From Schizosaccharomyces osmophilus (Eukaryota > Ascomycota > Schizosaccharomycetes > Schizosaccharomycetales > Schizosaccharomycetaceae): DNA of 64,000 nt. The notes beneath the pieces are model-generated. The model had not been told where the DNA came from. It did not search any database and saw only the letters and a program-made list of their open reading frames with translations. Shown here piece after piece: positions 33,868 to 64,000 of this stretch. Every line of letters starts with the position of its first letter. Within the stretch, counting starts at the first letter, position 1. Location: the NCBI RefSeq assembly GCF_027921745.1, contig NC_079238.1, positions 4,650,001 through 4,714,000 on the forward strand, in the 5' to 3' direction. Both the position numbers and the translations under genes were made by a program.

Positions 33868-34078
33868 ATGTTTTTTCTTTCGACATCATGTCGTCTCTCT
33901 TTACTAGTCTTTAGATGAAGATTAATGTAATGAGTGGCGTCTGCCCTGTATAAATGTTTTATTGCCTATGGAAAATATTTAGCATCTAATAAACTACATG
34001 TTGTTAGCTCCGTTTGGCATATATACATATATTGCCTGTGTCCTCGTAGTATATTATTTATTTACATGAGCTCATAAG

Positions 34079-36319
34079 TTATTTATTATTCTCATTAGAA
34101 ACATCATAAGGTAGCGGCCGACGAGGTAGCTTATGCTTGCCAGCAATCAAAGTGGATTCGTCGGTGTTAGATTCTTTTTCTTTCGCCAGTAGCTTATCAT
34201 CTGCCATTGATTCATTGACAAAGGGAAGTGTATTTTCTTGTCCTTCGGGTTGTCTTTTTGTTTCTTCCTTTGGGCTTGGCCCCGAATCTGACTTCTGTAA
34301 CAGCTTAAATTGCGAGTTTTTGTTTGCAAAGGACAATTTATCATCAGTCAATTGATTCGTTTCTAAAAAGTCGTCTTTTTTGTCATTATCAATTAAATTG
34401 GGGCTTTTCGTAGGAATCTCTTTTTCCTTTGGTTGAATAATCGCCTTCCTCGAGGTACTGTTATCAGCATGAGATTCTGTATTCATGTCTTCATCCTCAT
34501 CATCAGATGAATTCAAGTAATTAGCTTGGAGTTTTTTTACCATTGACTTGGCTTCTGATATTCCCTGGTAGAACGATTTTTTCGCTGCAACTCCATACTT
34601 TTTAGTCGCGTCCGATATTGTAGATTGAGAATTGTCATTCCAAAACTTCGGTCTTGATTTTCCAGACTTCGTGCTCTTTCTATCTGCAGGCGTCGATTTT
34701 ACAGACTGATTGTCTCGCAATGCATAACTAGGGTTGGTATTGACGGGGAAAGGCGTTGGTAACTGAACACTTTTTGTTTCTCCATCTGAAAGAGAGTTGT
34801 CTAAATCATTTCCAAAGTCTTTAGTCAGAGACTTATTTAAATCAAAGTCTTTTACAATAGACTCACTCGATTTAATAGATTTCCAGTCTGCGTCATCTAA
34901 TTGTGGTTCGGGAGATTGATCGGGTTTTTTGCTCTTTTTAGTCTCTGCTTGTTTTTCTGTGTCGTAATACTTTGAATCTTTAGAATTGTACAAACCTCCC
35001 TTTACAGGAAAAGGATCATCAGAGAAAAAAGCAATGTCGTTCATATGTGGAAGGACCATTGTTTCGAAAATTAAGTCCAGTAGCTTGTTTCGTATAAAAT
35101 TCAATAGATAGCTGTTGCTAAGTTGCTTTTGGAATACAGTAGGCTCAACATGAAGTTCAACTTTGGGTTCGTTGTAGAAGCCATACCAAATTCTGTTTGA
35201 AGGGGGCGGTTTGATGAAAAGACGGACTCTTCCAGATAAGTGTCGCAAACGGATAACCAAAGAGAATTTCACCTTCTTAGAGGGAATCTTTGATCCTAGC
35301 GTTAGTTTTGCACTTGTCTCAGCCTTAAAACTACAGTCACCCTGATATAGAATATCCGCAGCCACATTTAGTTCTCCTGCTTCTGAAAAAGAAATAAGAT
35401 CTAAGTTGTTAACAACAGGAACGGATTCTCCAACATCAACATTAGTAACCTGGATTTCAGACATCATTTCAGGAGTACTTATTTTAGATAATTTACGAGA
35501 TAATTTGTGCTTAATCGTATTCTTGAAGCCTTCAGATTTGTGAATTCCCAAATAGATCCTTCCTATGAAAGCATTAAGCCAAATTAGGTCCGGAGAGGAG
35601 AGATTATCGAGATTATTTTTGACGGTATCATAATCAAAAGTGACAGGACCGTCAATTGGTCTGAGAGGTGGACAGGATTTCGAAAATGAGAGAAGTTTGA
35701 AATACCAATCTTCTTTTTTTGATGGAGTTCTTGCATATAAATACAGGTTTTGAGAATCCAGAGTAATCTGGTCTAATTGAGGAAGTAGCTTCCCTGTAGT
35801 AGGTTCTAATAAAATCGCATTTCGATTGCTGAAAGCTTCATTTTCGGACACCTCAGTAGGATATAATGTGATGTTGTAATTCTCTAGAACCATAGTACTT
35901 AGTAAACAATGTGTGTTTAGTGGGTCGTGCAATAAGAGTTTTCCGTTGATTAGCTTTACAAAATAGACGTTTTTGGGATTTTTTATAGCGTATCGAGTTG
36001 TTTTCCCTTCATCTGTTGAGACCTTTATATCAGAAAGTAGCGTGTTTGATTCGATCTTTCCATCAGAAGTCTCTTCAATTTCTTGAACTTTGACGGAGCC
36101 ACTTTTACCATTTAGGAATGCGGGAGAAAGTCTGACCCAGTCTTGGATTACGACCGTTTCCGGCGAATCAGAGATAGTTGTTTTGTAGTCCTCAATAGAA
36201 ATTTCTGCTTTATCGTCATCGGTTTTCCCTTTGGACATTAAGTACAGGTAAATTAATACCAAAAGAGGAAGAAAGGTTAATCCACCTAATAAATATGCAA
36301 GAAGGAAGGATAGAAACAT
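34079..36319 (-). CDS. SMP-domain lipid-transfer protein (Nvj2/TEX2 type)
   Basis: 746 aa from the ATG at 36319; 12 upstream codons are open but begin with TTG. An N-terminal membrane anchor ('FLSFLLAYLLGGLTFLPLLVLIYLYL') is followed by a PH-like region (~60-215) and an SMP/TULIP lipid-binding domain (~235-450; 'LSSPDLIWLNAFIGRIYLGI' start and 'FIRNKLLDLIFETMVLPHMNDIAFF' end). The last ~290 residues are disordered, Lys/Ser/Asp-rich. It corresponds to S. pombe SPBC23G7.06c. Relatives act at ER-vacuole or ER-Golgi contacts moving lipids. Confidence 0.82.
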   Translation of the reverse strand: MFLSFLLAYLLGGLTFLPLLVLIYLYLMSKGKTDDDKAEISIEDYKTTISDSPETVVIQDWVRLSPAFLNGKSGSVKVQEIEETSDGKIESNTLLSDIKVSTDEGKTTRYAIKNPKNVYFVKLINGKLLLHDPLNTHCLLSTMVLENYNITLYPTEVSENEAFSNRNAILLEPTTGKLLPQLDQITLDSQNLYLYARTPSKKEDWYFKLLSFSKSCPPLRPIDGPVTFDYDTVKNNLDNLSSPDLIWLNAFIGRIYLGIHKSEGFKNTIKHKLSRKLSKISTPEMMSEIQVTNVDVGESVPVVNNLDLISFSEAGELNVAADILYQGDCSFKAETSAKLTLGSKIPSKKVKFSLVIRLRHLSGRVRLFIKPPPSNRIWYGFYNEPKVELHVEPTVFQKQLSNSYLLNFIRNKLLDLIFETMVLPHMNDIAFFSDDPFPVKGGLYNSKDSKYYDTEKQAETKKSKKPDQSPEPQLDDADWKSIKSSESIVKDFDLNKSLTKDFGNDLDNSLSDGETKSVQLPTPFPVNTNPSYALRDNQSVKSTPADRKSTKSGKSRPKFWNDNSQSTISDATKKYGVAAKKSFYQGISEAKSMVKKLQANYLNSSDDEDEDMNTESHADNSTSRKAIIQPKEKEIPTKSPNLIDNDKKDDFLETNQLTDDKLSFANKNSQFKLLQKSDSGPSPKEETKRQPEGQENTLPFVNESMADDKLLAKEKESNTDESTLIAGKHKLPRRPLPYDVSNENNK

Positions 36320-36710
36320 AATTGGTTTAACAATTGCGGCAAGGGGTACAGTCAAATGAGCGTAAAGTTGTAGATACTTTAGTACGCTTGCTAGGAGGCG
36401 TGGAGTTTGAGAGAATTGTGGTAAGAGTAATTGTTTAGAAAGAAACTTTTAAACAGATTCTATAAGTGCTCATAAAAACATTAATAAACAGTTCGAGTTT
36501 GCGGTGTGTTGTTGAGAGTTACGTAGTGTTCGGTGGACGTTTTATGTGCAACATAAATAAAAGTAGTTGCCAACGTAAATAGAAACAAGTTACGAATAAA
36601 TAGTTACAATATAAAAGATAAAAACAGTGTTTATTCGATCAATGCGCAAATACTATGTAAGTCTAAATATTTAACCAAAAACCCAGAGTAAATAAAACGG
36701 AAAAAGGAAG
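36320..36710. other. SMP gene promoter / cms1 3' region
   Basis: About 390 bp. The + strand is already G-rich over C on this side of mat1. No gene. Confidence 0.5.
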
Positions 36711-37662
36711 CTAGTAGAAACAGATTTTGGTGGTCTTGTCTGATAAACGTTTAAGTAGAGAGGGATGAGTGAGAAACTCCATGACAGGTTTTTTACAGTC
36801 ATTGTTTGAGATAAGGTTGTATGATTTTTTGTCAGTGAATGTATAATCCAGAATAACAAACTTCAAGTGATCAAAGTTGAGGTTTCCTAATTTGACGTTA
36901 GTAAGGGAAGAACTAAAGATTTATTACATACCGTTTGTCAATTGTAGTATACGTTGGGGGGTCCCTACTGCTATACCAATCTTGTTATTTTTGCAGTATT
37001 CGATGTGTTCGTCAAGCTTGATATGCTTACCGAAGAGTTTTGTAATTTTAAATTCTTCTGTCTGTAGTTTCCTAAGAGCCTTTACGATATCAAGAGCCCG
37101 TAAAGCAGAGAGACAGAAAATTAGGGTAGTAGGACTACCGTTCGAATCAACTTTGTTGAACTCATTTTCTTGATTGTTTTTTTTGAACGCGTGAGTTACG
37201 TATTCGGGATAGTTTCCAGTTTCCCGTTCATTGGGAAAGTCAATTGTATCTTCGATGTACGAAGCTAAGTTTCCAAGTTAGTATAAGTAAAAAGGGTTGT
37301 TTTCGAGAAGACATACATTTGATAAACCTGTCTTGTAATTCTACAGCAGAAAGATCTTTAAAATTGATGCGAATTTGGTTGTTAATAATGTCAGACAAGA
37401 TATCAGGAGAGTGGGCAAGAGAAGTGGCTTCTTTGCCAGATGTGCCGAATTTTTGCTTTTTCTTTTCCTTTAATTTTTGACGTTGGCGTTTGCGTTTGTT
37501 TTTTTTGACTTCAGAAGCATCTGAAGAAGGTTGATTGGCTTCGATTTCATGTGAAGAAGACTGGGATTGACTGTCGTTGTCGGATTCGTTTGAAGAGGCG
37601 TCAATTTGGTAGTCTAAATCATCCTCTAACGCGTCTGCGTTTGTCTCTGTGTGCTTCATCAT
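36711..37662 (-). CDS. cms1: Cms1-like ribosome biogenesis protein
   Basis: Three exons in transcript order: 37662-37317, 37264-36932 and 36886-36711. Donors are GTATGT in both introns; branches are ACTAAC and acceptors CTTAG and ATTAG. Phases 1/1 are consistent throughout, giving 284 aa. The N-terminal third is acidic then very basic ('KKNKRKRQRQKLKEKKKQK'). The rest is a DEAD-like RecA fold without Walker A, with 'PTTLIFCLSALRALDIVKAL', 'IGIAVGTPQRILQLTN' (the motif Ib TPxR region) and 'KFVILDYTFTD' in place of DEAD. Cms1 is part of the small-subunit processome pathway. Between the SMP gene and rga7 as in S. pombe. Confidence 0.82.
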
Positions 37663-37964
37663 GTAGTACAGTTGACGTTGTTCGGAAAAAAGGACGTAGT
37701 GGTTTGGTTGAGCAAGGTTGTTTGAAAAGAAATAAGATGGTAGTTAGTGAAAATATAGATATTGAAAAGTAGTAGTGTCTAGTTTAATTATTTAAAAGAA
37801 AGAGAAAAAGTTAGATATTATTCGTGAAATAAAGAAAAAGAACTGAAGTAAACTGTGTACAAAGAAATTAAGCATATTGATTTTTTTTTTCCAAAGTAAA
37901 AAAGAAGAATTAAAGAATCAAGTGAACCGACGTTTACAGGATATTGAAATTTATGTACAATTCT
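37663..37964. other. cms1 promoter / rga7 3' region
   Basis: About 300 bp. The + strand is purine- and G-rich. No gene. Confidence 0.5.
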
Positions 37965-39971
37965 CTAGTCATAGTCAAAAATAGTAAAGCAATAATCTAT
38001 GAGGATTTCAATAGTGCGTGAGAAACTACTAATTTCTGGGATCGTAGCTTGTTTTAACAAAGTAGGGCCCCAAATGATAGCAAGATTATTAGTGGACATT
38101 TTGTTGACATCGCTGTTGTCCTTGATTTTAGTCAAATGAATTGTGAGATGACGAATAGTAGAATAGTTAGCGTCGGGCAAATCATTAATGGCGCGATGTA
38201 CAGCATCTCTCCGACGCGCTTCGTCCTCAACCTTACCAGCGTCAATAAAATCGTTGTAGTGTTGATTTGGAATAAGAGGTTCGGACAATTCGCGGAAGAA
38301 GGATTTCAAGAGATCAGCAAGGGAATGAACGTCGTTTCCATAATCCTTTGCCGAATTGAGGATCGTAAGAGGTTCTTTTGTGAATTGCTGACGAAGAGCG
38401 AGCACCTTGGCGGCAGAACTGGGAATGCGGTAGATTCCTTGAATGTTGAGGCCAAAAGTTTCTATTTGGGTGGTACATTGAACAACGACGTTTGGAACGT
38501 TGGAATGTTCACGTAAGAGAATGGCTTCCAAATGAGCACCAAAGAGAATGGTTGAGTCAGAAACCGGTGACTGGGGCTTATTATTAGACTCAACAATGTC
38601 TTGGGCAGGAAAAAAGTTAGGGGAAGGAGGTTTTGCAGAATCAGAAGTCTTTAATTTTGTTTGTGTCGATGGTGGTAAAGGATTAGTATCGATATTGGGG
38701 GGGTTGGTGGCCGTAGGTGTTTGTACTTCTGGTAGTGGATGGATGGTTTCAGACTTCGTTGGTGAAGGAGAGCCTCTTGAGGAAAGAGCAGGATTTGGAG
38801 GTGCAGGTGCAGGTGCAGGTGCAGGTTTTAGAGGTTTGGTAGGTGAGGGTAGTGTCTCTTGAGGTTGTGGTTTTTGCGAATTGGAAGCTATTTGGTTGTG
38901 AGAAGTCATAGGGCGGTTAAAGTTGTTTGTGGAAGGCGTGGAAATGTGGGTAGGATTTGTTGGAGTAGAAATGTTTACGGAGGGAGGTGTAGAAGATGTG
39001 TTAGAGGGACCATAGGAACTAGGTGGTTGAACGATTTTCGTTTTTGAAGCGTCAGAAGGGTTTTGATCATTTTTACGTCGAGAAGAAGAGTCGAGAACGT
39101 ATTGGCGGAAGTCGGCGTTAGAATCAAAATTGTGGAGAGCATGTTCGAAACCACAGCTTTGAGTTGAGATGTTTTGAGGGCGGATCAAGACACCGTTCAT
39201 GACAGTGTGAGTTTCACAAAGTTTTGTGTAACGGAGATAATTACAGTTAAGGGAGGCTTCAATTTCTTTCTGTAAGCTGAAGAACTGCTTAATATAGTTG
39301 GGACGATGAATGAGAAGAAGTTCTTGTTGGGCTGTTTGGGCATTTTGAATGTTAGATTTCATGTCCGACTCTGCAGATTCTGCTTTAGAGCGAGCCTCCT
39401 CTTCGAGTCGGGAGAGTTGAGCATTGGACTTTGGTTTGAAGAAACCAACTTTTTTCTGGTTGTCACTGGCGTTTTTTTGATCGAGAGTGTGATTGTAGTC
39501 GGATTCAGCACTCTTGAAGCGGGCTTTGGATTTGTCCATGTGTACGACGGCTTCAAGGTATGAGTTTTCTTGGCGTTTGGCATATTCCTTGATAGACTTT
39601 CGTTTGCGATCACACCCTTTATAGAAATCCAAGACTTCATCAGAGCAAGTAGAGAAAGCCTTGTGTTGTGTAAAGGAATTAGCAGCGAGTTGTTCATGGA
39701 TTTGAAGGGATTTGACGAGTACCGCTGGAAAAGAACTGGATGAAGCGTGGTTGTCTTGAAATGTTTCGAGAAACGACTTTGCAATCTTTTGAAGATCCTT
39801 TGCAGACTGTTCTTCAAGAACAGCTCGTTTCTTCAAAAAATTTGCGAATTCCTTGGAAATGTTTAAGTGGGATTTGATTCGGTCATTGAGTATGGACAAA
39901 CCAAGTTCACTGTGAAGAATGGTTTCAACTTTAGGGTCTTTTAGAATGTCGGTTTTTGTTTCAGCATCCAT
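37965..39971 (-). CDS. rga7: F-BAR RhoGAP Rga7
   Basis: 668 aa, one exon. N-terminal F-BAR (residues ~10-270, 'LSILNDRIKSHLNISKEFANFLKKRAVLEE'-type start) binds membrane, a Pro/Ser/Thr-rich linker (~290-450, including an Ala-Pro run) follows, and a RhoGAP domain lies at ~475-665. The arginine finger is visible in 'GIYRIPSSAAKVLALR', and 'LADLLKSFFRELSEPLIP' is the second GAP block. In S. pombe Rga7 acts on Rho2/Cdc42 and in septum formation. The coding strand is markedly C-rich, part of the mat1-centred skew. It lies directly left of mat1, as in S. pombe. Confidence 0.92.
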   Translation of the reverse strand: MDAETKTDILKDPKVETILHSELGLSILNDRIKSHLNISKEFANFLKKRAVLEEQSAKDLQKIAKSFLETFQDNHASSSSFPAVLVKSLQIHEQLAANSFTQHKAFSTCSDEVLDFYKGCDRKRKSIKEYAKRQENSYLEAVVHMDKSKARFKSAESDYNHTLDQKNASDNQKKVGFFKPKSNAQLSRLEEEARSKAESAESDMKSNIQNAQTAQQELLLIHRPNYIKQFFSLQKEIEASLNCNYLRYTKLCETHTVMNGVLIRPQNISTQSCGFEHALHNFDSNADFRQYVLDSSSRRKNDQNPSDASKTKIVQPPSSYGPSNTSSTPPSVNISTPTNPTHISTPSTNNFNRPMTSHNQIASNSQKPQPQETLPSPTKPLKPAPAPAPAPPNPALSSRGSPSPTKSETIHPLPEVQTPTATNPPNIDTNPLPPSTQTKLKTSDSAKPPSPNFFPAQDIVESNNKPQSPVSDSTILFGAHLEAILLREHSNVPNVVVQCTTQIETFGLNIQGIYRIPSSAAKVLALRQQFTKEPLTILNSAKDYGNDVHSLADLLKSFFRELSEPLIPNQHYNDFIDAGKVEDEARRRDAVHRAINDLPDANYSTIRHLTIHLTKIKDNSDVNKMSTNNLAIIWGPTLLKQATIPEISSFSRTIEILIDYCFTIFDYD

Positions 39972-40464
39972 AGTGTTTGGGGATTGGTAATGGATGGTGA
40001 AAATGATTGAATGCTCCGTTGGAATGAAAGTGAGGATGAGAAAAGGAGGGCGGGTTGGAGTTCACAGACGTATACTGGTGGTAGGTAGACTGTGAGGGAG
40101 TCTGTGAGGTGTTGGGTAGAGCGGTGTAATGGAATTAAGATTAATCTGATTGGAGTGCGTTAGCAAAAAAAAAGCGAAGCTCACTGGCATTTGTAACTAA
40201 AGTGCCATACCCACGATAAGTGGGGTATCATTCTTAGTGGGGTCTGTAGTAGAACTGTTGAACTTGTAAGGGAAAGATGATTTAGAGAAGAAGTACGGAA
40301 GAGACTAGAAAGTACTGAAAACGACGCGTTGGAAAAGAATGAGATTGTTAATTTTGTAGATGTAAGGATGTTTACGAAAGCTTTGATGGTTTGGACGCGT
40401 AGACGATTGTGTAATTCACAGAAAACAGAGAACAAAATAGTTTGGTAATATGGAACTACGATAC
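39972..40464. other. rga7 promoter / mat1-proximal region
   Basis: About 490 bp between rga7 and the mat1 H2-like box. The + strand is extremely G-rich (40081-40140 has 26 G and 3 C). It contains a small imperfect inverted repeat at 40207-40228 and AGTGGGGT twice. In S. pombe the replication terminator RTS1 lies on this side of mat1. Confidence 0.5.
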
Positions 40465-40808
40465 AAAGGTTCAAGAATGAGAAAGAAGCTCAAAAGGTAG
40501 AAAAAGATATATAAAAAGATATAGAGAGATATAAATAGTGCATTCAATTGATTATGACAAATGGGATAAAATCTGAGCTGACAGTATGCTGCTATGACTG
40601 TCAACTTGTCATCAAGTAGATGGACCAAATAAAGTCGGATAACAATTCATAGAACTTGATAAATATACAATTAGAAGTCTTTTATAGTTTAGATTGTAGG
40701 GACTGGAATAACATAATTTTTCTGTATGCACAGCATCCAACCTAATAGCCAGAAACGCCTTCCAAATTTACTGAACCGTGCTTATATGTAGTTTATAGTT
40801 GTTGTGTT
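40465..40808 (+). repeat. mat homology box, left (H2-like), mat1 copy
   Basis: 344 bp with no mismatch seen against 61292-61635 of the silent M cassette. S. pombe H2 is 135 bp, so this box is longer. Its last 41 bp lie inside the 3' end of matPc. Confidence 0.93.
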
Positions 40809-41121
40809 CTTTATGCCAGAGGGTAAGGATAATTTTTTCTAACGTTGCAATTTGTTTCCGCACATCCTGGTACTGACTTAATTCTGCTGTTTGTGACCAT
40901 GCTGATTTAACATTTTGAGGTAAAGAACGCCATATATTTGAACATTTAGCAGAGACACCGCCCCAGTCTCCTGAAGATTTTAAAAGCTTGTGAATCCTGC
41001 TCCGAAATAAGATGAAACCGTTCTTATAGTTGTGATTAGACGTCCGATTTTTTCTTGTTTTAAATAAAGTAGAAGGTGTTAGAACCGGTAAGAACACTGG
41101 GTTTTTTAATGTTGGATTCAT
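40768..41121 (-). CDS. matPc: mat1 matPc, alpha-box transcription factor
   Basis: 117 aa (S. pombe Pc is 118). P-cell-specific regulator needed for pheromone and receptor genes in plus cells. The MAT-alpha (HMG-related) box is at residues ~33-95, 'NGFILFRSRIHKLLKSSGDW' through 'SAKCSNIWRSLPQNVKSAW'. It is transcribed away from matPi. The last 12 residues (HNNYKLHISTVQ) are encoded within the shared H2-like box and are therefore identical to the end of Mi in the M cassette. Confidence 0.92.
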   Translation of the reverse strand: MNPTLKNPVFLPVLTPSTLFKTRKNRTSNHNYKNGFILFRSRIHKLLKSSGDWGGVSAKCSNIWRSLPQNVKSAWSQTAELSQYQDVRKQIATLEKIILTLWHKEHNNYKLHISTVQ

Positions 41122-41253
41122 TTTAAATATTTAGAAAGTTGGTGGGTTCTGCGGTCCATTTATAGTTGTATGGTGGCTCCTTTTCTTTGTTCTCTCTGTA
41201 ACTTAGATTACCGAAGTGTACTTCTGAAAGTTAGCATTAATACAACAGTCAAT

Positions 41254-41730
41254 ATGAAAGAATTGATCTCTTTTTTAAATAATTTACTGCGAAAATTTGT
41301 TACAATTAATCATGAAAGATTTGGATTTATATTAGAGCAATTGAAACACGCGTATGGACTACTGGTTGATGTTAAACACGTCCCTGCTAAGTACATTCTT
41401 GAGAGCTTTAAAATATTGGAATCAATTAAACACGTCTGCAATGTTAAAATACACGAAAATGTCACGCGAAACACTCTTAACTTCAGTTTACAAGCTCAAC
41501 TTTTCAAACCAAATGTATTGAACTGCATTCACATAAGTAACGCGAGTGGACGTCCCTTAGTGACATCCAGAGATACCTGTGCAGATTGTATCAAGGCTCA
41601 TTTAATGCGTTGGCTATTACTTCATGTTGATAATCCATATCCTACACCTTCAGAATACTACCAATTGTGTCTTGAAACTGGTTTAACGAGAAATCAATTG
41701 CGTAATTGGTTTTCCAATAGACGACGCTAA
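41254..41730 (+). CDS. matPi: mat1 matPi, homeodomain meiotic regulator
   Basis: 158 aa from the ATG at 41254 (S. pombe Pi is 159 as I recall); the frame opens further to an ATG at 41170, but that would leave only ~50 bp to divergent matPc. The homeodomain fills the C-terminus: 'KAHLMRWLLLHVDNPYPTPSEYY' then 'GLTRNQLRNWFSNRRR', ending directly after the NRRR of helix 3, as in S. pombe. Pi acts with Mc in the h+/h- diploid to induce mei3 and enter meiosis. Confidence 0.92.
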   Translation: MKELISFLNNLLRKFVTINHERFGFILEQLKHAYGLLVDVKHVPAKYILESFKILESIKHVCNVKIHENVTRNTLNFSLQAQLFKPNVLNCIHISNASGRPLVTSRDTCADCIKAHLMRWLLLHVDNPYPTPSEYYQLCLETGLTRNQLRNWFSNRRR

Positions 41731-41869
41731 CTAGCACCGATAATGCAGGAATAGACAATACTATACAACTTTTTTTCAATTTCTTTGTACATACAATTAT
41801 ACAGTAGTTCTATTAAGCCATTTCTATCAGTAGGTCCCGTTCAATTTTTTGCGTGTTTGGAATTCATAA

Positions 41870-41932
41870 ATTTTTTTTTCGGAAAACAAATGTATAGGCT
41901 TTCTCTATTGTTTTATGTCGTTCGTTTCCATG
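41870..41932 (+). repeat. mat homology box, right (H1-like), mat1 copy
   Basis: 63 bp identical to 62765-62827 (M cassette) and, inverted, to 63422-63484 (P cassette). S. pombe H1 is 59 bp. mat1 and the silent P cassette share 15 more bases beyond it, to 41947. Confidence 0.93.
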
Positions 41933-41947
41933 TATTTAATTGTCTAT

Positions 41948-42837
41948 CGCATTCTTTTACTTCTTCCCCTCTCTTTCCCTTTTCTTTGTCTTTCCTTTCC
42001 AAGCCCGATCCCTCCAACGATACTCTGCTCCGCTGCGCTACGCATACCCTTCCTCCATGTTACCTCCCATCCTTCCTCACCCGCACTACTCTTTCTTACA
42101 CATCCTTCTTACCTTTGTTTACATCCATTTGTCCCACACCATTACTTTTCGCACTGCCTCTACCTTTAACTCTTGCCTCCATTCAAACATATTCTAATTC
42201 CCTCGTTTCTTTACATTGACAACTTTTCTTCTATTTTAATTTCCTCGTGTCCATCCTTTTCCTTTCTATTCTAAACTACTTTATTCCATCTTCCTTTTTC
42301 ACCCTTCCTATAATTTCTCTGCCTTCCCATTTCCATCCCACCACATCCTCCATTCCATTGTTTTCCACTTCTCCCACTCACCCTCTCGCGCTTTCCCTTT
42401 CAACCTTCCAATTGTCCTTTCTTCATTCATCGGCTCACTCCACTATTCCCTTCTCCCTCCTACCCCATCGGTTTACCACCCTCCCTCTGCCCTACCTCTC
42501 ACTATTCACCACCCCTATACCCTGCCTAACCTTTCATTTTCCTTCCTCATCAACTTGTTATTCTTCTTTTACCCCCACACGTACTCTCTCCCACTACAAA
42601 CGAACTCTTCCTCCCCTTCCACATCATACTCAGCTATTACCTGGCCCAACTCCCCTCTACCACCCATTTTCCATTCCCCTTCCCATTGTTTCAAACGAGA
42701 ATTCTTCCTTTATTATTCACTAATAATTACTTTTTTGTAAATTAACTTACTATTCTAAACAGACTTACTCCCTACTTTACCGATTTTCTTTAATTTCAAT
42801 TCAATGTAATACCGCTACAAATTCCTACCTATACATT
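41948..42837. other. Pyrimidine-rich region right of mat1
   Basis: About 890 bp in which the + strand is almost free of G (42241-42300: 19 C, 2 G). Several overlapping open frames exist in all three + frames only because G-poor sequence lacks TAG and TGA. No gene is supported. By analogy with S. pombe the switching-activating sites and the imprint should lie near the mat1-H1 border here. Confidence 0.6.
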
Positions 42838-43455
42838 ATGTCTCCTTCTTACGCAAAAGCTGAAACCCATTTAAAAAACATTAATCCAACTTGGTCCAAA
42901 ATTGTCGACACCGTAGGTCACTGCTCCTTTGAACCCCATCCTGAACGCCAACCCTACGAAGGACTCATTCGTGCAATCACTTCACAAAAGCTTTCTGCTG
43001 CTGCTACAGATGCTATTATTCACAGATTATGTGCGCTTTATCACAAACATCAGTTTCCAACTCCCAAACAAATTGTCGACACCGACGTTGAAACATTGCA
43101 CTCCTGCGGTTTCTCTAAATTAAAGGCTGACGCAATTCACAATATCGCTAATGCTGCACTCAATAACCAACTTCCTTCCAATGACGAAATCTGCAAAATG
43201 TCCAACGAAGACCTTTTAAAAGCTCTTAGCACACATAAAAGTGTTAAGCGTTGGACAATTGAAATGTACATGATTTTTACTCTCGGTCGCCTCAACATTA
43301 TGCCAGCCGATGATGCTACTCTTCGCTCTAGTATTACACGCATTTTTCATCCTGATAAAAATCTATCTATTGAAGAACTTGAAACTCTGACTTCCCCTTG
43401 CGCTCCCTACCAGACTATTGCTGCTTGGTACCTCTGGCACTACCCAAAACACTAA
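42838..43455 (+). CDS. mag2: DNA-3-methyladenine glycosylase (HhH-GPD)
   Basis: 205 aa. Base-excision repair glycosylase of the AlkA/Mag family. The HhH motif is 'LHSCGFSKLKADAIHNIA' (residues ~82-100) and the catalytic Asp lies in 'IMPADDATLRSSITR' (~160). 'PYEGLIRAITSQKLSAAATDAI' is the family N-terminal helix pair. Codons are chosen from the C-rich side (+ strand G-poor), in line with the regional skew. S. pombe has mag2 in the same place right of mat1, from memory with a flavin oxidoreductase gene between that is absent here. Confidence 0.9.
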   Translation: MSPSYAKAETHLKNINPTWSKIVDTVGHCSFEPHPERQPYEGLIRAITSQKLSAAATDAIIHRLCALYHKHQFPTPKQIVDTDVETLHSCGFSKLKADAIHNIANAALNNQLPSNDEICKMSNEDLLKALSTHKSVKRWTIEMYMIFTLGRLNIMPADDATLRSSITRIFHPDKNLSIEELETLTSPCAPYQTIAAWYLWHYPKH

Positions 43456-44251
43456 CAAATCGACAGCAAACAACAATCTCACAAACACATGAAAAACAGG
43501 CCTCATTTATTTATTTATTTATTTATTACTTCACTTTTCTTAATACGCTCATTAAACACTTCCTATTGTTTTTCAAAACCAACATCACCACCTTAGTCTA
43601 ATAATACTAAAGTCTTCACCTCTTTCTTCCGTATACTCCACCTCTACTTCTGTATTTCTTTCCCACTAAATAACGTACCTCGTTCAACTACATTCACAAA
43701 TTCCAAACAGGACTGCTTTTTTTTATGATATATAAACCCCTCATCAACTTTTCCATTCTTCATTAAACCAAGTTTTGCCTACTGTTTTCCGCTATATATA
43801 TACCACGGACGACGGTTTACTACATGCTTGGAAGAAAAATAGTCGACTCCACCCTGGATTATCCTATTTTATGATTTTTCAGTACTAAATCAACGACTAA
43901 AATACTTCCAATAATTATACAACCTAAATATAGATACATTTTTTTCAATATACTTTATTTTATCACTAAAATTATTGTTTAATCGTAACCATAAACTATA
44001 GTATGCGATTTATCTCTTCAACTACTCAGATGTATAAACACCCCACTCCATATACTACTTGATATTCCACATTGTTACGCTTCCTCTCTTCTATATCATT
44101 TTAATACCTAACACAAATCTAACTGAAACACGTTGCAATCGCAATCCACTAACACACAATATTTACTACACATACAAATTATCACCTACAAGCAAAAACA
44201 CTTAATCGAAAAATAACTATCATCATATTCATTCATCAATTCTACTACAAA
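43456..44251. other. Convergent mag2 / rpt6 3' region
   Basis: About 800 bp, AT-rich with very low G on the + strand (44041-44100: 20 C, 3 G). A (TTTA)n tract lies near 43506-43528. No gene or tRNA recognised. Confidence 0.5.
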
Positions 44252-45546
44252 TTACTTGAATAGTTTTTGCAAACTCATCTCTCCAGATTCTCCCTTGTTA
44301 AGAACCTTTACGACGGCAAGCTCGAAATCTTCTTGAGTAACATGTACACGTCGTTCACGTAAAGCAAACATACCAGCTTCTGTACAGACACCTTTCAGCT
44401 CAGCACCACTTGCTCCGTTCATCTTTTCTGCAATACTCAACAAGTTAATTCCACGAGTAAGATTCATAGAACGAGAATGGATTCTCAAAATTTCGGCTCG
44501 AGCTTCGTTAGATGGAGGAGGAAATTCGATTTTTCGATCGATACGGCCAGGTCTTAAAAGAGCGGGATCCAAAATATCAATCCGATTTGTAGCCATGATT
44601 ACTTTAATATTTTTGGTAGACTCGAAACCATCAAGTTGGTTCAACAATTCAAGCATAGTTCTTTGAACTTCGCTATCACCACTACCGCCACCTGCGTCTG
44701 ATCGTGAAGAACCAATAGAATCAATTTCATCCATAAAAATAATTGACGGAGCATGTTCACGAGCCATAACGAAAAGTTCCCGAACCATACGACTACCTTC
44801 ACCAATATACTTCTGTACCAATTCAGAACCACTCACACGAATAAACCTGCAATCAGTGTGGTGTGCAACGGCTCTAGCAAGTAAAGTCTTTCCTGTACCA
44901 GGAGGACCGTACAAAAGAATACCTTTGGGTTGTGGAATACCCAAGCTTTCAAATAACTAAAAGTTAATTTTAATTCCCCTAATATTTATGACTTACCTCC
45001 GGATGCTTAACAGGCAACTCAATTACTTCCTTAATCTCTTTGATTTGTGTTTCTAATCCACCAACCATTTCATAAGTAGAGTCAGGAATTTTCTCGACCA
45101 TCATTAAAGAAACCAAAGGATCAACTCTATTTGGAAGTATTTTAATTAATTGGTAAGAATCATTCCTCAAGGCAACACGAATATTAGGCTTAATATCCTT
45201 GATATCAACATCGGGACTCACGTCAACGACATATTTACCCTCAGGATTCACCTTAACTAACACTTTGTTTTTGCCCATCGTTTTGATTACTTCCCCAACA
45301 TAACTTCCTGGTTCTTGTAAAAGTTGGATTTCTTCTCTCAACAAACGAACTCTAGCATTCAATCCGTTTCTCTGAGCTTCTAATCGTCGGAGGTTCTGGG
45401 TTTTATTAAGGATATTCAACTCGGCATTTTGGATTTTTTGTGTATAGTACTAAGAAGTATGTCAGAAACTACTTACACCGAAAATTACTTACCTGTACTA
45501 TGTTTTCATTGCTTTCCAAGACATTGGAAGTCAGAACTTCCGTCAT
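44252..45546 (-). CDS. rpt6: 26S proteasome ATPase Rpt6
   Basis: Regulatory-particle AAA+ ATPase that unfolds substrates. Three exons in transcript order: 45546-45493, 45449-44997 and 44956-44252, both introns with GTAAGT donors and phase 0. The total is 403 aa, the family length. N-terminal coiled coil ('[20 protein letters not shown]') and OB region are followed by the AAA domain with Walker A 'GPPGTGKT', Walker B 'IIFMDEID', and arginine fingers in '[16 protein letters not shown]'. In S. pombe the same gene (let1/rpt6) lies between mag2 and the urea transporter. Confidence 0.96.
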
Positions 45547-45846
45547 TTTTCTAAATGCCACTTAGTTGTTGTGGTGTGTAGAGAATAAGTGAATATCTAC
45601 ATTTATAGAACCTTCCATACTCCTCTAACATCACGCTATTCTGCGTTATTTGCTTTCCTTTCAAAAATATTTTATTACTCTACGAACACTGATACTACAA
45701 TAATGTGTTTATTCCATCTAAATATATACCTCATTAAGAATTACATAAAAATATCCATATTACTCTAGACAAACAAAAAATGATAAAACCAAATCGTTCG
45801 TTCGTTAACAATAATTTTATTAAATACGAAATTAAAACATTTTAAT
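45547..45846. other. rpt6 promoter / dur3 3' region
   Basis: 300 bp, AT-rich. A proteasome PACE-type element was not recognised. No gene. Confidence 0.45.
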
Positions 45847-47829
45847 CTACATAAAAGGCTTCTTTTTCTCTGTTCCCTTTTCTTCATTCTTTTCGATGTT
45901 TTCATAAGCATCAACTTCTACGATATCTTCACTTTCAATGACTTTCACTCCAAAGGCTGATTCGAACACTCTTTTCACGATGCCATAAATGTCCTTTTTC
46001 CCTTCCCATAGAGGGAATATTCCTACTGAAAACACAGTAAAGAAAATCCATATTAATCCTACTACGACCCAGCCAGTAAAAAATCGTTTTGAAAATATAT
46101 ATTTCGAACCATACATCGGCCAAGGCCACAAAATAATAAACACGGCCGCAACACCTGTTGCAGCAATTTTTGATATCATACTTGCACGATTAAGTTTTTT
46201 CTTCTGTAGAACCTCCTCTTCCTCAGATTCGTAGTGCATCTCAAACTTACTCAGCAAGTCATCAAAATCGTATTTTTCGGGCTTAATAATGGAAAAAAAG
46301 ATCAAATAGAGTATAGGGCTCAAGAGTCCCACAACATTGCCTGCTAACATTGGATTATTCGCCCCTGTCGTTTCAATTGTCAATTTACCTGAACCCTGCA
46401 CACCTGCAACGACAAGCCAACTGACGATACTCGAAACCAATCCTAATACAGGAGAAACGGTAATTGCTAGCTTAGAGGTTCGTGAAGAAAGCATCACACA
46501 TGTTGCTGGAACGACTGCAGGGCAAACCAATACTCCCATCAGTAGGTATAAATACCCCATTGATACGTTTCCATAGTATAACCCTGTTGCTAAAGCTGAC
46601 ATCGCAACCCCAAATACTATTAATACCGCATGTCCAGTATATAGCAACTCTTTATTGCCGGCATTCCGTCTAAAATACTGTTTGTAAATATCATAAGTAA
46701 ATATTGATGAGACAGCAATCAATTCGGATGAAGCTGCGGAAGTAACAGCCATAAATATTAGTAATACTGTGGCATTCGCACCTGTTTTACCCATCAACGC
46801 AATTGCTCCATAGGGCAAAGCTAGTCCTTGACTGACTTCTAGATCAGTCATACGATTTGGATACGTAGGAAAATAAGGCATAGACTCAAGGGCAAGGCAT
46901 ACGAGACCCGTTGTAGTAGCTGCCAACCATGGAATTGCAAACCAAGAAAGGCCACCCAATATGTAGCCAGGCAGCGCTGAAGCAGGGTTTGCTGCGATAG
47001 CTTTTTGCCAATAGCCATTGTCCACAAACACTGTTCCAAAATTCCCCGCAAGGTTAATTATGAAGAAAATAGCTCCTTCTCGACTTCTCATAGTAAGGTA
47101 ACTTCCCTCAGCGTTTCCTTCTACAGGGTGGGAGTCTCCGGCAGCTTTCAACATATCATAGAGCTTACCTGGGGACCCGATTTTGTCACTAGCGGAATAG
47201 GCAGATAAACTAAACATAATTAAAATCACAAGAATGATGATTGTATGAATATAATCCGTAAGGAACGTTGCCTTGATTCCTCCAAAAATAGTATATATTA
47301 TCACTCCTACTGGAAGTAAAAAGCAAGCTGCAACCGTATTCATACCAGTTATAGATGCAATTGTGGCCGATCCTCCGCATAAAAGCATAGCCATCACAAG
47401 GATGTTGGTAACATATGCAAAAAAAATAAAAACTGTGTGAGCTATCGGTCCACACCGGGCTCGAACAACTTCCAGAAACGTATGCGCATTAGGTGCTTTC
47501 CTTTTCAGTTCAATTGCCAAGACCGTAAACAACAAAATTTGAACACAAGCACCTGACGCATACCAGAATGCTCCCGAAACACCATATTGGTAAGTTTTTT
47601 GAGCACTGGTCAGTAATGTTGATGCCCAAGTCCAGCTACTCACAACAGCACTGGCGACTAATCCAGTTCTAACACTATGTGAGGCTGTATTAAAGTGCTC
47701 TGATGTCTGGTTCTCGTTGCTGTACTTCTTAAGGATATATGAAATAGATATCATCAAAACAGCGAAACCCAATCCAACACCAACAACTACGCCGTACCCG
47801 ACACTTTCGGAAACTGTCGGCTGTACCAT
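45847..47829 (-). CDS. dur3: Plasma-membrane urea transporter (SSS family, Dur3)
   Basis: 660 aa, one exon, with about 14-15 hydrophobic segments. It is a sodium:solute symporter-fold protein closest to yeast Dur3: 'SYILKKYSNENQTSEHFNTASHSVRTGL' region at TM1, 'VVSSWTWASTLLTSAQKTYQYGVSGAFWYASGA' spanning TM2-3 and 'VTSAASSELIAVSSIFTYDIY' in the middle. Dur3 imports urea (and polyamines in budding yeast), normally under nitrogen control. The C-terminal tail is acidic/basic and cytosolic. It lies between rpt6 and the coiled-coil orphan as in the S. pombe L region. Confidence 0.88.
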   Translation of the reverse strand: MVQPTVSESVGYGVVVGVGLGFAVLMISISYILKKYSNENQTSEHFNTASHSVRTGLVASAVVSSWTWASTLLTSAQKTYQYGVSGAFWYASGACVQILLFTVLAIELKRKAPNAHTFLEVVRARCGPIAHTVFIFFAYVTNILVMAMLLCGGSATIASITGMNTVAACFLLPVGVIIYTIFGGIKATFLTDYIHTIIILVILIMFSLSAYSASDKIGSPGKLYDMLKAAGDSHPVEGNAEGSYLTMRSREGAIFFIINLAGNFGTVFVDNGYWQKAIAANPASALPGYILGGLSWFAIPWLAATTTGLVCLALESMPYFPTYPNRMTDLEVSQGLALPYGAIALMGKTGANATVLLIFMAVTSAASSELIAVSSIFTYDIYKQYFRRNAGNKELLYTGHAVLIVFGVAMSALATGLYYGNVSMGYLYLLMGVLVCPAVVPATCVMLSSRTSKLAITVSPVLGLVSSIVSWLVVAGVQGSGKLTIETTGANNPMLAGNVVGLLSPILYLIFFSIIKPEKYDFDDLLSKFEMHYESEEEEVLQKKKLNRASMISKIAATGVAAVFIILWPWPMYGSKYIFSKRFFTGWVVVGLIWIFFTVFSVGIFPLWEGKKDIYGIVKRVFESAFGVKVIESEDIVEVDAYENIEKNEEKGTEKKKPFM

Positions 47830-48319
47830 GGTAGAACTCCAAAATTTCTCTTAGATTTATTAAGTATTTAGTAGAAAATAGCTTGCTTAAAGCAAACATC
47901 TTATAAATATCAACTGAGAGGCTCTTATGAACATGATTAAGACCCTCCGATATAGCGCTTAATCTATAATATTTTATTTTATCTTACACACATCGCCACG
48001 AGATCTTTTTTCTTTTAAAAATATATACTTTGAGATTTAGTTGATTGGTACCTCTATAAGTGAACGCTTTCTGATAATTTCGTTCTACTCAATATCATGA
48101 AGTGAACCTATCGAAGTATTTACTAGATTAATTAGACCCACACTTCACGACAACAGACTAACAGTATAGTACGAAATAAACAGGCAAACATCACTTTTTT
48201 GAGGTTTCTTCCTCTTTGACTATGAAAACCCGTATTTGTTCAATTAAAAAGTACAAATTGACGAACTACTAAAATACGCTTTCAGCTGATCATCAATTCA
48301 GTTTATTTGGAACAGTAAA
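47830..48319. other. Divergent promoter region
   Basis: About 490 bp between dur3 and the orphan coiled-coil gene. AT-rich, no gene. A GATA-type nitrogen site is plausible (several GATA/TATC) but not specific. Confidence 0.4.
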
Positions 48320-49352: not shown

Positions 49353-49468
49353 TTTATTTACCGGAACAAAATCACTTTAAGCAAAGCAGGTTATCTTTGC
49401 AGAAATTGTCTCCAGGTCTGACAAAGTGGTTTCTGCTGCATATATATATGAAAATTTTCACAAGTCAA

Positions 49469-49478
49469 ACCCTACCCT
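49469..49478 (+). promoter_or_regulatory. HomolE box of rpp2
   Basis: ACCCTACCCT, a perfect HomolE, upstream of the minus-strand P2 gene. No perfect HomolD is adjacent; the nearby AGTCAAA is only a partial match. Confidence 0.7.
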
Positions 49479-51590: not shown

Positions 51591-51635
<45 letters not shown>

Positions 51636-61291: not shown

Positions 61292-61635
61292 AAAGGTTCA
61301 AGAATGAGAAAGAAGCTCAAAAGGTAGAAAAAGATATATAAAAAGATATAGAGAGATATAAATAGTGCATTCAATTGATTATGACAAATGGGATAAAATC
61401 TGAGCTGACAGTATGCTGCTATGACTGTCAACTTGTCATCAAGTAGATGGACCAAATAAAGTCGGATAACAATTCATAGAACTTGATAAATATACAATTA
61501 GAAGTCTTTTATAGTTTAGATTGTAGGGACTGGAATAACATAATTTTTCTGTATGCACAGCATCCAACCTAATAGCCAGAAACGCCTTCCAAATTTACTG
61601 AACCGTGCTTATATGTAGTTTATAGTTGTTGTGTT
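61292..61635 (+). repeat. mat homology box, left (H2-like), silent M copy
   Basis: 344 bp, no mismatch seen against mat1 40465-40808, same orientation. It carries the last 41 bp of the Mi coding region. Confidence 0.93.
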
Positions 61636-61750
61636 TTTGCTTCTTCTTCCTCAAGTTTATTTTGGTTTTATTTGCTAGGGTTAATGAAGAGAGTTTTAGC
61701 TGTATAGCGTCACAAATTTTATAAATTTCCTGTAGTTCCGACGTTTCCAT
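61595..61750 (-). CDS. matMi: Silent-cassette matMi
   Basis: 51 aa, too short for ordinary gene finding. It starts at the ATG at 61750 (METSELQEIYKICDAIQLKL) and resembles S. pombe Mi, a 42-aa M-specific protein needed with Pi for meiosis. The stop and last 12 residues lie in the H2-like box and are shared with Pc. It is divergent from Mc. Presumably silenced here and expressed only after transfer to mat1. Confidence 0.75.
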   Translation of the reverse strand: METSELQEIYKICDAIQLKLSSLTLANKTKINLRKKKQKHNNYKLHISTVQ

Positions 61751-61880
61751 GTTTTTGGTTGTTTCTAAGATAAGAATTTATGTTTTTTTTAGGTAATGTA
61801 GTGAGCTGCCCAGTTAGGTTTCTTTGTTCCAGCATATTTATAGGTGGTGTCTGAAACACTACCTTCTATTCAAACATAAA

Positions 61881-62420
61881 ATGCAAGTGAATTCTACTTT
61901 ACCACAAATGCCTAGTGAAATGTCTGATCCAGAATGGAAATTGAAAAAGTACTTAACAAAAGATGCTTTAAAATCTATTGAAGACGGGAGAGGTGCTGCA
62001 TATTTTGTACCAGAGGGCTATACCCCATTACTTGTTCCCATGTCTCAGACCTACCGGTTTGAAAGCTATGGTTTAGCACAGACTCCACAATTGACATCTT
62101 ATAAACTGGATAACTGCAGAGTACCGGGATACATAATGAAGAACATACGAAAGCAAAACATGCCTGCAAGAGCACCGCGACCACCGAATGCCTTCATTCT
62201 ATACCGTAAAGAAAAGCAATCATTACTATCCGAAACCAATCCTGGTATGACTAATGCTGAGGTTTCTAAATTGGTTGGTCAGCTCTGGAAAGAGGAATCA
62301 AATGAAGTGAAGTTGAAGTACTTTAAGATGTCAGAATGTTATAAAACCGAACACGAAAAACTGTATCCAAACTACAAATATCAACCAAGAACGAGGAAGT
62401 CTAAGAATTATTTAAAGTAA
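61881..62420 (+). CDS. matMc: Silent-cassette matMc, HMG-box factor
   Basis: 179 aa from the ATG at 61881 (S. pombe Mc is 181); an upstream in-frame ATG (61824) would add 19 residues. SOX-like HMG box at residues ~97-170: 'RPPNAFILYRKEKQSLLSE', 'EVSKLVGQLWKEESNEVKLKYF'. The N-terminal block 'KKYLTKDALKSIEDGRGAAYFVPEGYTP' is conserved with S. pombe Mc. Master regulator of M-specific genes; silent at this locus. Confidence 0.93.
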   Translation: MQVNSTLPQMPSEMSDPEWKLKKYLTKDALKSIEDGRGAAYFVPEGYTPLLVPMSQTYRFESYGLAQTPQLTSYKLDNCRVPGYIMKNIRKQNMPARAPRPPNAFILYRKEKQSLLSETNPGMTNAEVSKLVGQLWKEESNEVKLKYFKMSECYKTEHEKLYPNYKYQPRTRKSKNYLK

Positions 62421-62764
62421 TAGTTTTAATATATTTAATTTATTGATGGTCATTAATTCCTATGAGTGCCTGTAATCCTAGTATTCCCAGTAGTCCAAAT
62501 GAGCAGAGCATACTTACCCGGTAAATTGGTACGGCTGTAAAGTTTTGTGCGACAATGGATAGCGATTATCTAATAAAATTATATTACATCTATTAAAGGT
62601 TTAATTAGCGAATAATGATTCAGGTGACATTTTAGTAGGCGTCAGTAGTCAGGTCATGTCCGACCTAGGAGCGATATAGTTCATACATGTCAAAATACAT
62701 GCGATTGAGTGCCCCAATTCTATTAAAACATGCTGTCTTTTTCTTTCCGTTGATATTCTCCAAT

Positions 62765-62827
62765 ATTTTTTTTTCGGAAAACAAATGTATAGGCTTTCTC
62801 TATTGTTTTATGTCGTTCGTTTCCATG
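62765..62827 (+). repeat. mat homology box, right (H1-like), silent M copy
   Basis: 63 bp identical to mat1 41870-41932, same orientation, and inverted relative to 63422-63484. Confidence 0.92.
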
Positions 62828-63406
62828 GGCAATGTTGCAAAAACGCCGAATGTTGCATAACCATTTTTACAGCCTTTTGAATACGTTAATAGTAGTACTA
62901 TGGTAGTTTTAGAGCTCGTGTATTGTCCGTATATCGTTTTTTATGGTAGGGTGAAATTTAATTATGTCGAAAACCATAGTATTCAGCAGTTTTTTTTGCA
63001 TTTTTGTTTAATTTATACTTTTTATTAATCATATAAAATTATTCAAGTCGGTTTCTTACTAAAAAAAAGTTAATCAATTAATAACTCGGCACCTAGCGGT
63101 TTTCTAAATATCAAACAAATTTTATAAGAAATAAAAAATTAGTCTTATTACAAATAAATTAGTTTAAGCTTGATTGGTTTTGATTTGAAAAAGCAAATAA
63201 ATTGAAGATAGTTTCGAACTATCTTCAGTGACTTGAATGGCAGAATTCCATGTGCACACGTCTAAAAAAGCATTTTTAATTAAAAGAACATAAAATTAGA
63301 AACTATTTTGTAATACTTTATGGTCCTAAAGCTTACATACTGGGTCTCTGCGAACTCAGAAACATTTTCTGCAACATGAAGGGGAAAGCAGCTTAAAACA
63401 AAAGCA
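62828..63406. other. Spacer between silent M and P cassettes
   Basis: About 580 bp, AT-rich, with no gene or repeat recognised. The two H1-like boxes face each other across it. Confidence 0.6.
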
Positions 63407-64000
63407 ATAGACAATTAAATACATGGAAACGAACGACATAAAACAATAGAGAAAGCCTATACATTTGTTTTCCGAAAAAAAAATTTATGAATTCCAAACA
63501 CGCAAAAAATTGAACGGGACCTACTGATAGAAATGGCTTAATAGAACTACTGTATAATTGTATGTACAAAGAAATTGAAAAAAAGTTGTATAGTATTGTC
63601 TATTCCTGCATTATCGGTGCTAGTTAGCGTCGTCTATTGGAAAACCAATTACGCAATTGATTTCTCGTTAAACCAGTTTCAAGACACAATTGGTAGTATT
63701 CTGAAGGTGTAGGATATGGATTATCAACATGAAGTAATAGCCAACGCATTAAATGAGCCTTGATACAATCTGCACAGGTATCTCTGGATGTCACTAAGGG
63801 ACGTCCACTCGCGTTACTTATGTGAATGCAGTTCAATACATTTGGTTTGAAAAGTTGAGCTTGTAAACTGAAGTTAAGAGTGTTTCGCGTGACATTTTCG
63901 TGTATTTTAACATTGCAGACGTGTTTAATTGATTCCAATATTTTAAAGCTCTCAAGAATGTACTTAGCAGGGACGTGTTTAACATCAACCAGTAGTCCAT
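63407..64000 (-). repeat. Silent P cassette (inverted, cut by window end)
   Basis: Reverse complement of mat1 41354-41947, no mismatch or gap seen over 594 bp. It includes the H1-like box (63422-63484), the Pi 3' flank and most of Pi. The Pc half and the left box must lie beyond the window. Confidence 0.93.
63624..64000 (-). CDS. matPi: Silent-cassette matPi (partial)
   Basis: Last 125 codons plus stop of Pi, identical to the mat1 copy, including the C-terminal homeodomain. The start codon would fall about 100 bp past the window edge. Presumably silenced as the P donor. Confidence 0.9.
   Translation of the reverse strand, partial: GLLVDVKHVPAKYILESFKILESIKHVCNVKIHENVTRNTLNFSLQAQLFKPNVLNCIHISNASGRPLVTSRDTCADCIKAHLMRWLLLHVDNPYPTPSEYYQLCLETGLTRNQLRNWFSNRRR

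Follow-up and report, generated by a model that had tools for sequence, protein, structure and literature searches.

The mat1 locus and its surroundings

A window of 64,000 nucleotides of the Schizosaccharomyces osmophilus genome (contig NC_079238.1, positions 4,650,001 to 4,714,000) was analysed, and all coordinates below are counted from its first letter. The window contains the mating-type locus mat1 together with silent donors, and the subject of this analysis is a strand bias of G and C on both flanks of mat1. In fission yeasts, a switching mat1 is recognised by a cassette whose sequence between H2 and H1 is identical to that of a silent donor, and by the presence of M and P donors, and this arrangement was found here. 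No mismatch to the P donor occurs between 40465 and 41947, the first mismatches lying at 40464 and 41948, and identity with H1 of the M donor ends at 41932. A Pi homeodomain was detected in the cassette, which is placed between rga7 and mag2; passages of PMC10085805 describe the genes flanking mat1 as strongly syntenic in four species. Two donors lie approximately 19 to 22 kb to the right of mat1, first M content and then inverted P content. The features used below are as follows.

40465..41947, no strand assigned: mat1 cassette with P content, delimited by its identity with the P donor; H2 on the left, H1 on the right
36320..40464, + strand: left flank, + strand G-rich and C-poor; non-coding at 36320-36923, 37663-37964 and 39972-40464
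41948..48319, minus strand: right flank, + strand C-rich and G-poor; non-coding at 41959-42837, 43456-44251, 45450-45846 and 47830-48319
61292..62827, + strand: M-content donor (Mc HMG box) with unskewed flanks
63396..64000, minus strand: inverted P-content donor, which continues beyond the window end up to about 64889
42036..42040, minus strand: candidate SAS1 (Sap1) site, the only TA(A/G)CG motif within 41948-42200
37965..39971, minus strand: rga7 (F-BAR and RhoGAP), from Pfam and named orthologues in three fission yeasts
36924..37662, minus strand: cms1, two exons with approximate limits, Pfam CMS1 for exon 1 and an open frame for exon 2
34079..36319, minus strand: nvj2 (Pfam MMM1), counterpart of S. 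pombe nucleus-vacuole junction protein 2
42838..43455, + strand: mag2, DNA glycosylase homologue, from orthologues in three fission yeasts, Pfam HhH-GPD and the Mag2 structures 4hsb and 4b21
44252..45449, minus strand: proteasome-type AAA ATPase, from Pfam AAA and lid matches and reading frames, exons approximate; we take it to be rpt6/let1 and call it rpt6 below
45847..47829, minus strand: sodium:solute symporter (Pfam SSF), presumably the urea transporter 'dur3'

The candidate SAS1 site agrees with passages of PMC10085805, in which the S. osmophilus counterpart of SAS1 has one TA(A/G)CG motif. Regarding the donors, the M (Mc) donor is nearer to mat1 and the P donor is farther away and inverted; they are named mat2-P and mat3-M in passages of PMC10085805. 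Both donors share an additional H3-like alignment of 146 columns outside H2 (60892-61291 and 64891-65290, the latter past the window end), and this stretch gave only chance-level alignment scores with the left flank of mat1. Near the donors, the region 55296-59623 contains reading frames that were judged by eye to be retroelement-like and are presumably remnants of a long terminal repeat element, as well as a pair of 71-base repeats that are 96% alike. A run of 43 A residues is found at 51592-51634.

GC skew on both flanks of mat1

A sequence-only reading of this DNA had proposed that the base composition of the + strand switches at mat1, and the five base counts that it quoted are all exact. 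The skew is real, large and centred on mat1, as seen from the opposite signs in non-coding DNA on the two sides and from a scan of 264 kb. On the left, the GC skew of the + strand in non-coding DNA amounts to +0.35 (36320-36923), +0.52 (37663-37964) and +0.51 (39972-40464). On the right it is -0.76 (41959-42837), -0.56 (43456-44251) and -0.27 (45450-45846), followed farther out by -0.14 (47830-48319) and -0.08 (49353-52854). The 141 non-coding stretches that served as background have a standard deviation (SD) of 0.123 and a range of -0.45 to +0.31. In windows of 1 kb, the extremes were +0.47 on the left (39.1 kb) and -0.69 on the right (42.5 kb); the remainder of the 264 kb, taken as background, has an SD of 0.10. 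The cassette is balanced, as had been noted before (GC skew of +0.04 for 40465-41958), and G and C are near balance in both donors and their flanks as well.

The scan applied a two-sided kernel to the non-coding G and C sites of the 264 kb. With the decay set to 3 kb, the peak was located at 41290 with a score of 18.6, compared to a background of -6.8 to 6.2. With decays of 1.5 and 5 kb the peak stayed at 41290 and the background maxima were 6.9 and 5.8. The kernel omits 750 bp on each side of its centre, which is about half the cassette, so that the exact centre is partly built in and the uniqueness is not. The contrast between left and right over 5 kb is 0.647 at mat1 and at most 0.310 in the background; over 500 bp, the value of 0.613 at mat1 is equalled by the background (0.616). 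The left peak alone is not unique either, as a value of +0.62 at 1 kb is found in a coding stretch that lies approximately 95 kb before the window start. This largest background peak coincides with a minus-strand frame of 545 codons (chromosome 1, about 4554320-4555954) and is coding in origin. The sequence-only reading had named skew of similar size at many unrelated loci as evidence against a special role of mat1, and the kilobase-scale two-sided pattern turned out to be unique among the 264 kb scanned. Together with ten additional samples of 4 kb, which were used for the gene tests only, this covers less than 3% of the genome, and peaks of equal size may exist elsewhere.

The skew decays over kilobases on both sides of mat1, with decay lengths of 4.05 kb (3.0-5.4) on the left and 3.47 kb (2.8-4.2) on the right. 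On the right flank, an exponential fits better than a step by 16 log-likelihood units (lnL), and the skew declines to about zero with no reversal of sign out to 17 kb. Farther to the left, the non-coding values going outward are +0.01 (33868-34078), -0.07, +0.27 (31722-32341), -0.16 and -0.30 (28400-28865); these outer stretches were obtained by masking reading frames of at least 100 codons, some of them chance frames, and are segmented slightly differently from the inner ones. The two stretches of reversed sign, at 11.7 and 12.6 kb from mat1, are inside the background range. Fading had been placed at about 35 kb and 47 kb. On the left, the skew of +0.35 at 36.3-36.9 kb is gone by 33.9 kb apart from the later value of +0.27, and on the right the skew fades by about 48 to 50 kb.

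These profiles bear on the possibility that replication forks always converge at mat1, so that an asymmetry between leading- and lagging-strand polymerases builds up there which stochastic origins average out elsewhere. Such a fixed terminus had been one of two explanations put forward by the sequence-only reading. Its sign is right, as it would make the leading strand G-richer on both sides, and replication of S. pombe mat1 is described as polar in passages of PMC5878685 and PMC2908685. The left side is also plateau-like up to 4.25 kb, and the values of -0.16 and -0.30 at 11.7 and 12.6 kb resemble what would be expected beyond an origin, yet +0.27 stands at 9.2 kb and all three are within the background range. 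However, a fixed direction predicts a plateau up to the origin and a reversal beyond it, neither of which fits the right side, and no comparable two-sided pattern exists elsewhere in the 264 kb. It also leaves unexplained why the right edge of the skew falls at the limit of donor identity, except through refreshing of the cassette, which it can share with other explanations. This edge is sharp: the likelihood change point for G and C is at 41950 (2 lnL support 41928-41963, gain of 55 lnL), which coincides with the end of P-donor identity at 41947. A fixed fork direction is less well excluded on the left than on the right, and we consider it quite unlikely overall.

A and T behave differently. 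AT skew at mat1 is weak and ordinary for the region (A/T scan score of 5.3, background maximum of 13.6), and an excess of T over A on the right, which had been noted as a puzzle, exists only in the first 0.9 kb of non-coding DNA and not beyond. This tract beside H1 (41959-42837) is 76% pyrimidine on the + strand with 5% G, and it holds the SAS1-like motif; both C and T are scarce on its minus strand, which distinguishes it from the DNA farther out. Selection could act on such flanks, for instance by favouring 3' tails that are purine-rich and unstructured or a polypyrimidine tract with a function beside SAS1. It would be in keeping with this that the bias is strongest in the 0.9 kb adjoining H1, where the exposed strand has additionally lost T. 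Against it, the third positions of rga7, cms1 and mag2 carry the same bias, which also grades into ordinary intergenic DNA. Selection is regarded as improbable.

Coding sites and gene orientation

The composition of genes offers a more ordinary explanation, namely codon preference combined with an excess of C on the transcript strand of genes that point away from the G-rich side on each flank. The three genes nearest on the left are all on the minus strand, mag2 is on the plus strand, and the sign of the codon bias is right: the fourfold sites of 105 background reading frames already lean towards C on the coding strand (mean skew -0.22, SD 0.28, extreme -0.94). The fourfold skews of rga7 (-0.70) and mag2 (-0.85) are only -1.7 and -2.2 SD away from background genes, and those of rpt6 and the symporter are ordinary. 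Related genes elsewhere in the genome have ordinary values, -0.19 for a Mag1-like gene and -0.34 to +0.07 for five RhoGAP frames; these frames were matched to search hits by position, and a sixth RhoGAP locus has no listed frame over its hit. As background genes reach -0.94, the raw fourfold skew was set aside and residuals conditioned on the amino acid were used instead.

Once the amino acid is taken into account, 13 of 15 segments show the expected sign at third codon positions, with one zero and one opposite. On the + strand, the residuals are -0.06, +0.01 and +0.07 from the far to the near end of nvj2, +0.08 and +0.19 in cms1, and +0.11, +0.14 and +0.17 in rga7. They are about 0 in the two cassette genes, -0.19 and -0.15 in mag2, -0.02 and 0.00 in rpt6, and -0.08, -0.06 and -0.08 in the symporter. 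Their rank correlation with distance is -0.70 for both sides together, -0.86 on the left and -0.36 (not significant) on the right. The segments are mutually dependent, and the 106 background genes that set the scale are longer.

Non-coding flanks were also compared after orienting them by the gene. The upstream flanks of rga7 (-0.53, z -4.3) and mag2 (-0.76, z -6.2) are outside the range of -0.38 to +0.39 that was obtained for 78 background upstream flanks. Downstream, mag2 on the plus strand has -0.65, and the opposite-facing minus-strand genes rpt6 and symporter are reversed, with +0.64 and +0.30; the downstream flanks of mag2 and rpt6 are the two ends of one intergenic stretch. The bias on the right follows the chromosome strand, not gene orientation. 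On the left, an effect of orientation is inseparable from an effect of strand because the three nearest genes are all on the minus strand. The objection, raised in the sequence-only reading, that gene orientation and codon use explain everything is answered by the genes beyond mag2, which point in the opposite direction and whose oriented downstream flanks are skewed in reverse. By the flank and third-position tests, codon usage and transcript orientation are insufficient as the full cause, and ordinary coding composition is highly improbable as an explanation.

Proteins were also compared between species. In the order S. osmophilus, S. octosporus, S. cryophilus and S. pombe, the skew implied at first and second positions is -0.09, -0.14, -0.09 and -0.07 for Rga7, -0.02, 0.01, -0.06 and 0.10 for Mag2, and 0.16, 0.17, 0.15 and 0.08 for Nvj2, with no clear difference between the four species. 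Polarised amino-acid changes in these three proteins showed no shift among the same species, with only 8 to 10 changes unique to S. osmophilus per protein. This comparison neither supports nor refutes the mutational reading developed below. The S. octosporus Mag2 sequence lacks about 17 residues present in the other three species, perhaps owing to a wrongly called intron in the database entry.

Origin of the skew and relation to known systems

For the analysis of composition, the exposed strand was defined as the strand that a break in mat1 would leave 3'-ended, which is the + strand on the left and the minus strand on the right. Its pooled composition is A.363, C.096, G.252 and T.288 on the left and A.362, C.068, G.288 and T.282 on the right, compared to A.333, C.174, G.170 and T.323 in background non-coding DNA. 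C is thus down, G up, A slightly up and T slightly down, mirror-symmetric across mat1. Five composition sets were each fitted with twelve models, all based on a four-state equilibrium model with an assumed symmetric background (kappa 2 or 4) to which one rate was added. C to G alone reaches the ceiling for the pooled left flank (within rounding) and comes within 1.4 (kappa 2) or 5.1 (kappa 4) lnL of it for the pooled right flank, at a fitted rate between about one and two times the mean per-site background rate. Deamination with C to T alone falls short by 44 lnL (pooled left) and 123 lnL (pooled right), and models with A to G, T to C, C to A or equal pyrimidine-to-purine changes are worse for the pooled flanks as well. 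Judged from these fits, C to G on the 3'-ended strand would be the best-fitting single change. It accounts for the raised G+C content and the mild purine excess of the flanks, and with G rather than T as the product, the earlier puzzle about A/T skew largely disappears.

The sequence context of the missing cytosines was analysed in both flanks. Relative to background, C is reduced to.57 after A,.51 after C,.37 after G and.42 after T, and a 5' T or C preference of the AID/APOBEC type was not seen in either flank. G-quadruplex G3 motifs are absent from both flanks on either strand. G2 motifs on the exposed strands number 6.5 and 10.5 per kb compared to approximately 1.2 in the region, an increase that the composition alone would bring about. 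Simple repeats were rejected as a cause, since only short weak arrays are present.

These observations are best accounted for by mutagenesis of single-stranded DNA at mat1 that is linked to a break or to forks. Specifically, the flanks are read as a long-term mutational footprint of switching, left by recurrent single-strand exposure at a break in DNA that is not refreshed from the donors, and we assign this reading a probability of roughly 0.56. We infer both the break, with mat1 as break site taken from S. pombe, and the type of substitution. In every switching cycle, a break in mat1 would cause flanking DNA to become single-stranded, the + strand on the left and the minus strand on the right. 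Exposed cytosines would be damaged, most likely by deamination and excision to abasic sites, which could not be repaired without the partner strand. A REV1-type translesion polymerase would then place C opposite the abasic sites during fill-in, giving C to G. Over very many generations the exposed strand of the flanks would become G-rich and C-poor, and the cassette would be reset from the silent donors. If a process operates at mat1 and its traces are wiped out inside the cassette, skewed flanks, a balanced cassette and an edge at the limit of donor identity would be expected. The affected base does switch strand at mat1, with the GC skew reversing its sign across the cassette. The genome encodes a REV1 C-terminal domain and has two matches to the uracil-glycosylase family. 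In yeast with an expressed deaminase, C to G accounted for 47% of the substitutions in clusters and 11% of those outside them, and it was nearly absent when UNG or REV1 was lacking (passages of PMC3628087). Passages of PMC7615360 report strand-asymmetric mutations in the 2 kb flanking human meiotic breaks, with C>N and A>N on the forward strand. Resection from a mat1 break with loss of cytosines was the other explanation in the sequence-only reading; it fits the geometry (presumed 3'-ended strand C-poor on both sides, kilobase decay, right edge at the donor limit), and its chemistry has to be revised, with C to T deamination alone rejected by composition and C to G in agreement with it.

The rival that is hardest to separate from this reading concerns stalled forks. 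Converging forks would be held up to the left of mat1 by an RTS1-like barrier and to its right by a pause site, and their resection would leave the lagging-strand template single-stranded. The same strands would be exposed as by resection of a break, and the process would naturally be two-sided. The single-stranded gap at RTS1 is roughly 1 kb long, which is exceeded by the footprint decay of 3.5-4 kb. Barriers of the RTS1 type contain repeated motifs to the left of mat1, and no RTS1-like repeat block was found in 39972-40600, where a diverged barrier would escape detection and the motif itself was not searched for. Precedents exist in S. pombe, in which forks coming from the centromere side are blocked at RTS1 and those from the right pause at MPS1 (passages of PMC5878685), and forks that collapse at RTS1 undergo resection and resume from a single-stranded gap with no break involved (passages of PMC4075360). 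Stalled forks, in place of the break, as the source of exposure are regarded as unlikely.

Several observations weigh against break-linked mutagenesis as set out above. On the left flank, a step of 4.25 kb fits better than an exponential by 4.7 lnL, and the left edge is blurred or gradual (support 40157-40605 or 40456-40738, depending on the range taken). On the right, the shift in purine content lies within H1, at 41899 (41893-41904), some 50 bp short of the right end of the cassette. The composition models assume equilibrium and a simple background, and composition only constrains the process. C to G alone misfits the first 0.9 kb on the right, where T is also lost, by 24 (kappa 2) or 13 lnL (kappa 4). 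For the stretch 43456-44251, a half-and-half model of C to G and C to T is superior to C to G, and the composition of 45450-45846 fails to discriminate between these models. Depletion of C extends to every neighbour context with no single motif. Among the coding sites, the raw fourfold skews of rga7 and mag2 depart only modestly from background genes, the rpt6 exons have almost no synonymous bias, and the protein comparison with three species gave no lineage-specific shift. Finally, the S. pombe mat1 break is described as single-ended (passages of PMC6420890), and a left flank that matches the right one in length is not easily accounted for on that basis. With a single-ended break, exposure on the left requires later processing or resection at forks held by an RTS1-like barrier.

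More tentatively, and with a likelihood that we place somewhat below even, a repeated programmed break may have rewritten the local base composition, so that flanks near equilibrium record the resection profile and the chemistry of C-to-G (REV1-type) repair. If this is true, the decay lengths of 3-4 kb would represent the length of resection in nature, and the left arm would show that a supposedly single-ended break is processed on both sides. Flanks of break sites would constitute a fossil record of resection reach and repair errors that is readable from genomes and comparable between species that switch and those that stopped. The housekeeping genes beside mat1 would then evolve under a lasting mutational load.

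A relation of skew to mat1, switching or resection was not reported in the titles and abstract openings of the open-licence papers that searches for such a relation listed, the word 'skew' is absent from the main text of PMC10085805, and no statement on base skew at S. pombe mat1 was found in the available passages of PMC6420890, PMC5878685 and PMC2908685. According to the same passages, S. pombe mat1 with its imprint, RTS1, H1 and SAS1 resembles the locus described here in its homology-boxed cassette and in silent donors on the same arm, and its neighbours are syntenic (passages of PMC10085805); it differs in that the donors of S. osmophilus are inverted and close together. In a donorless S. 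pombe strain, gamma-H2A spans about 50 kb with a peak within 10 kb of the break (passages of the group PMC6420890, PMC5878685 and PMC2908685). The GC skew of bacterial leading strands is alike in that the G-rich strand is the template of the lagging strand. Bacterial skew, however, forms a chromosome-scale plateau, whereas the skew at mat1 is a steep local peak. Kataegis in yeast (Taylor et al. 2013, passages of PMC3628087) shares with the mat1 flanks the kilobase-scale, strand-coordinated changes of C near a break, and C to G is its typical, UNG- and REV1-dependent product. It was induced by an expressed deaminase in culture, whereas the composition of the mat1 flanks is fixed, belongs to a natural locus and showed no deaminase motif. 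Human meiotic breaks (passages of PMC7615360, 2023) have the same left and right strand geometry, and resection together with translesion polymerases such as REV1 was proposed for them. There the asymmetry is spread over many hotspots, whereas here a single locus is concerned, so that the composition itself has shifted, and the range is somewhat longer.

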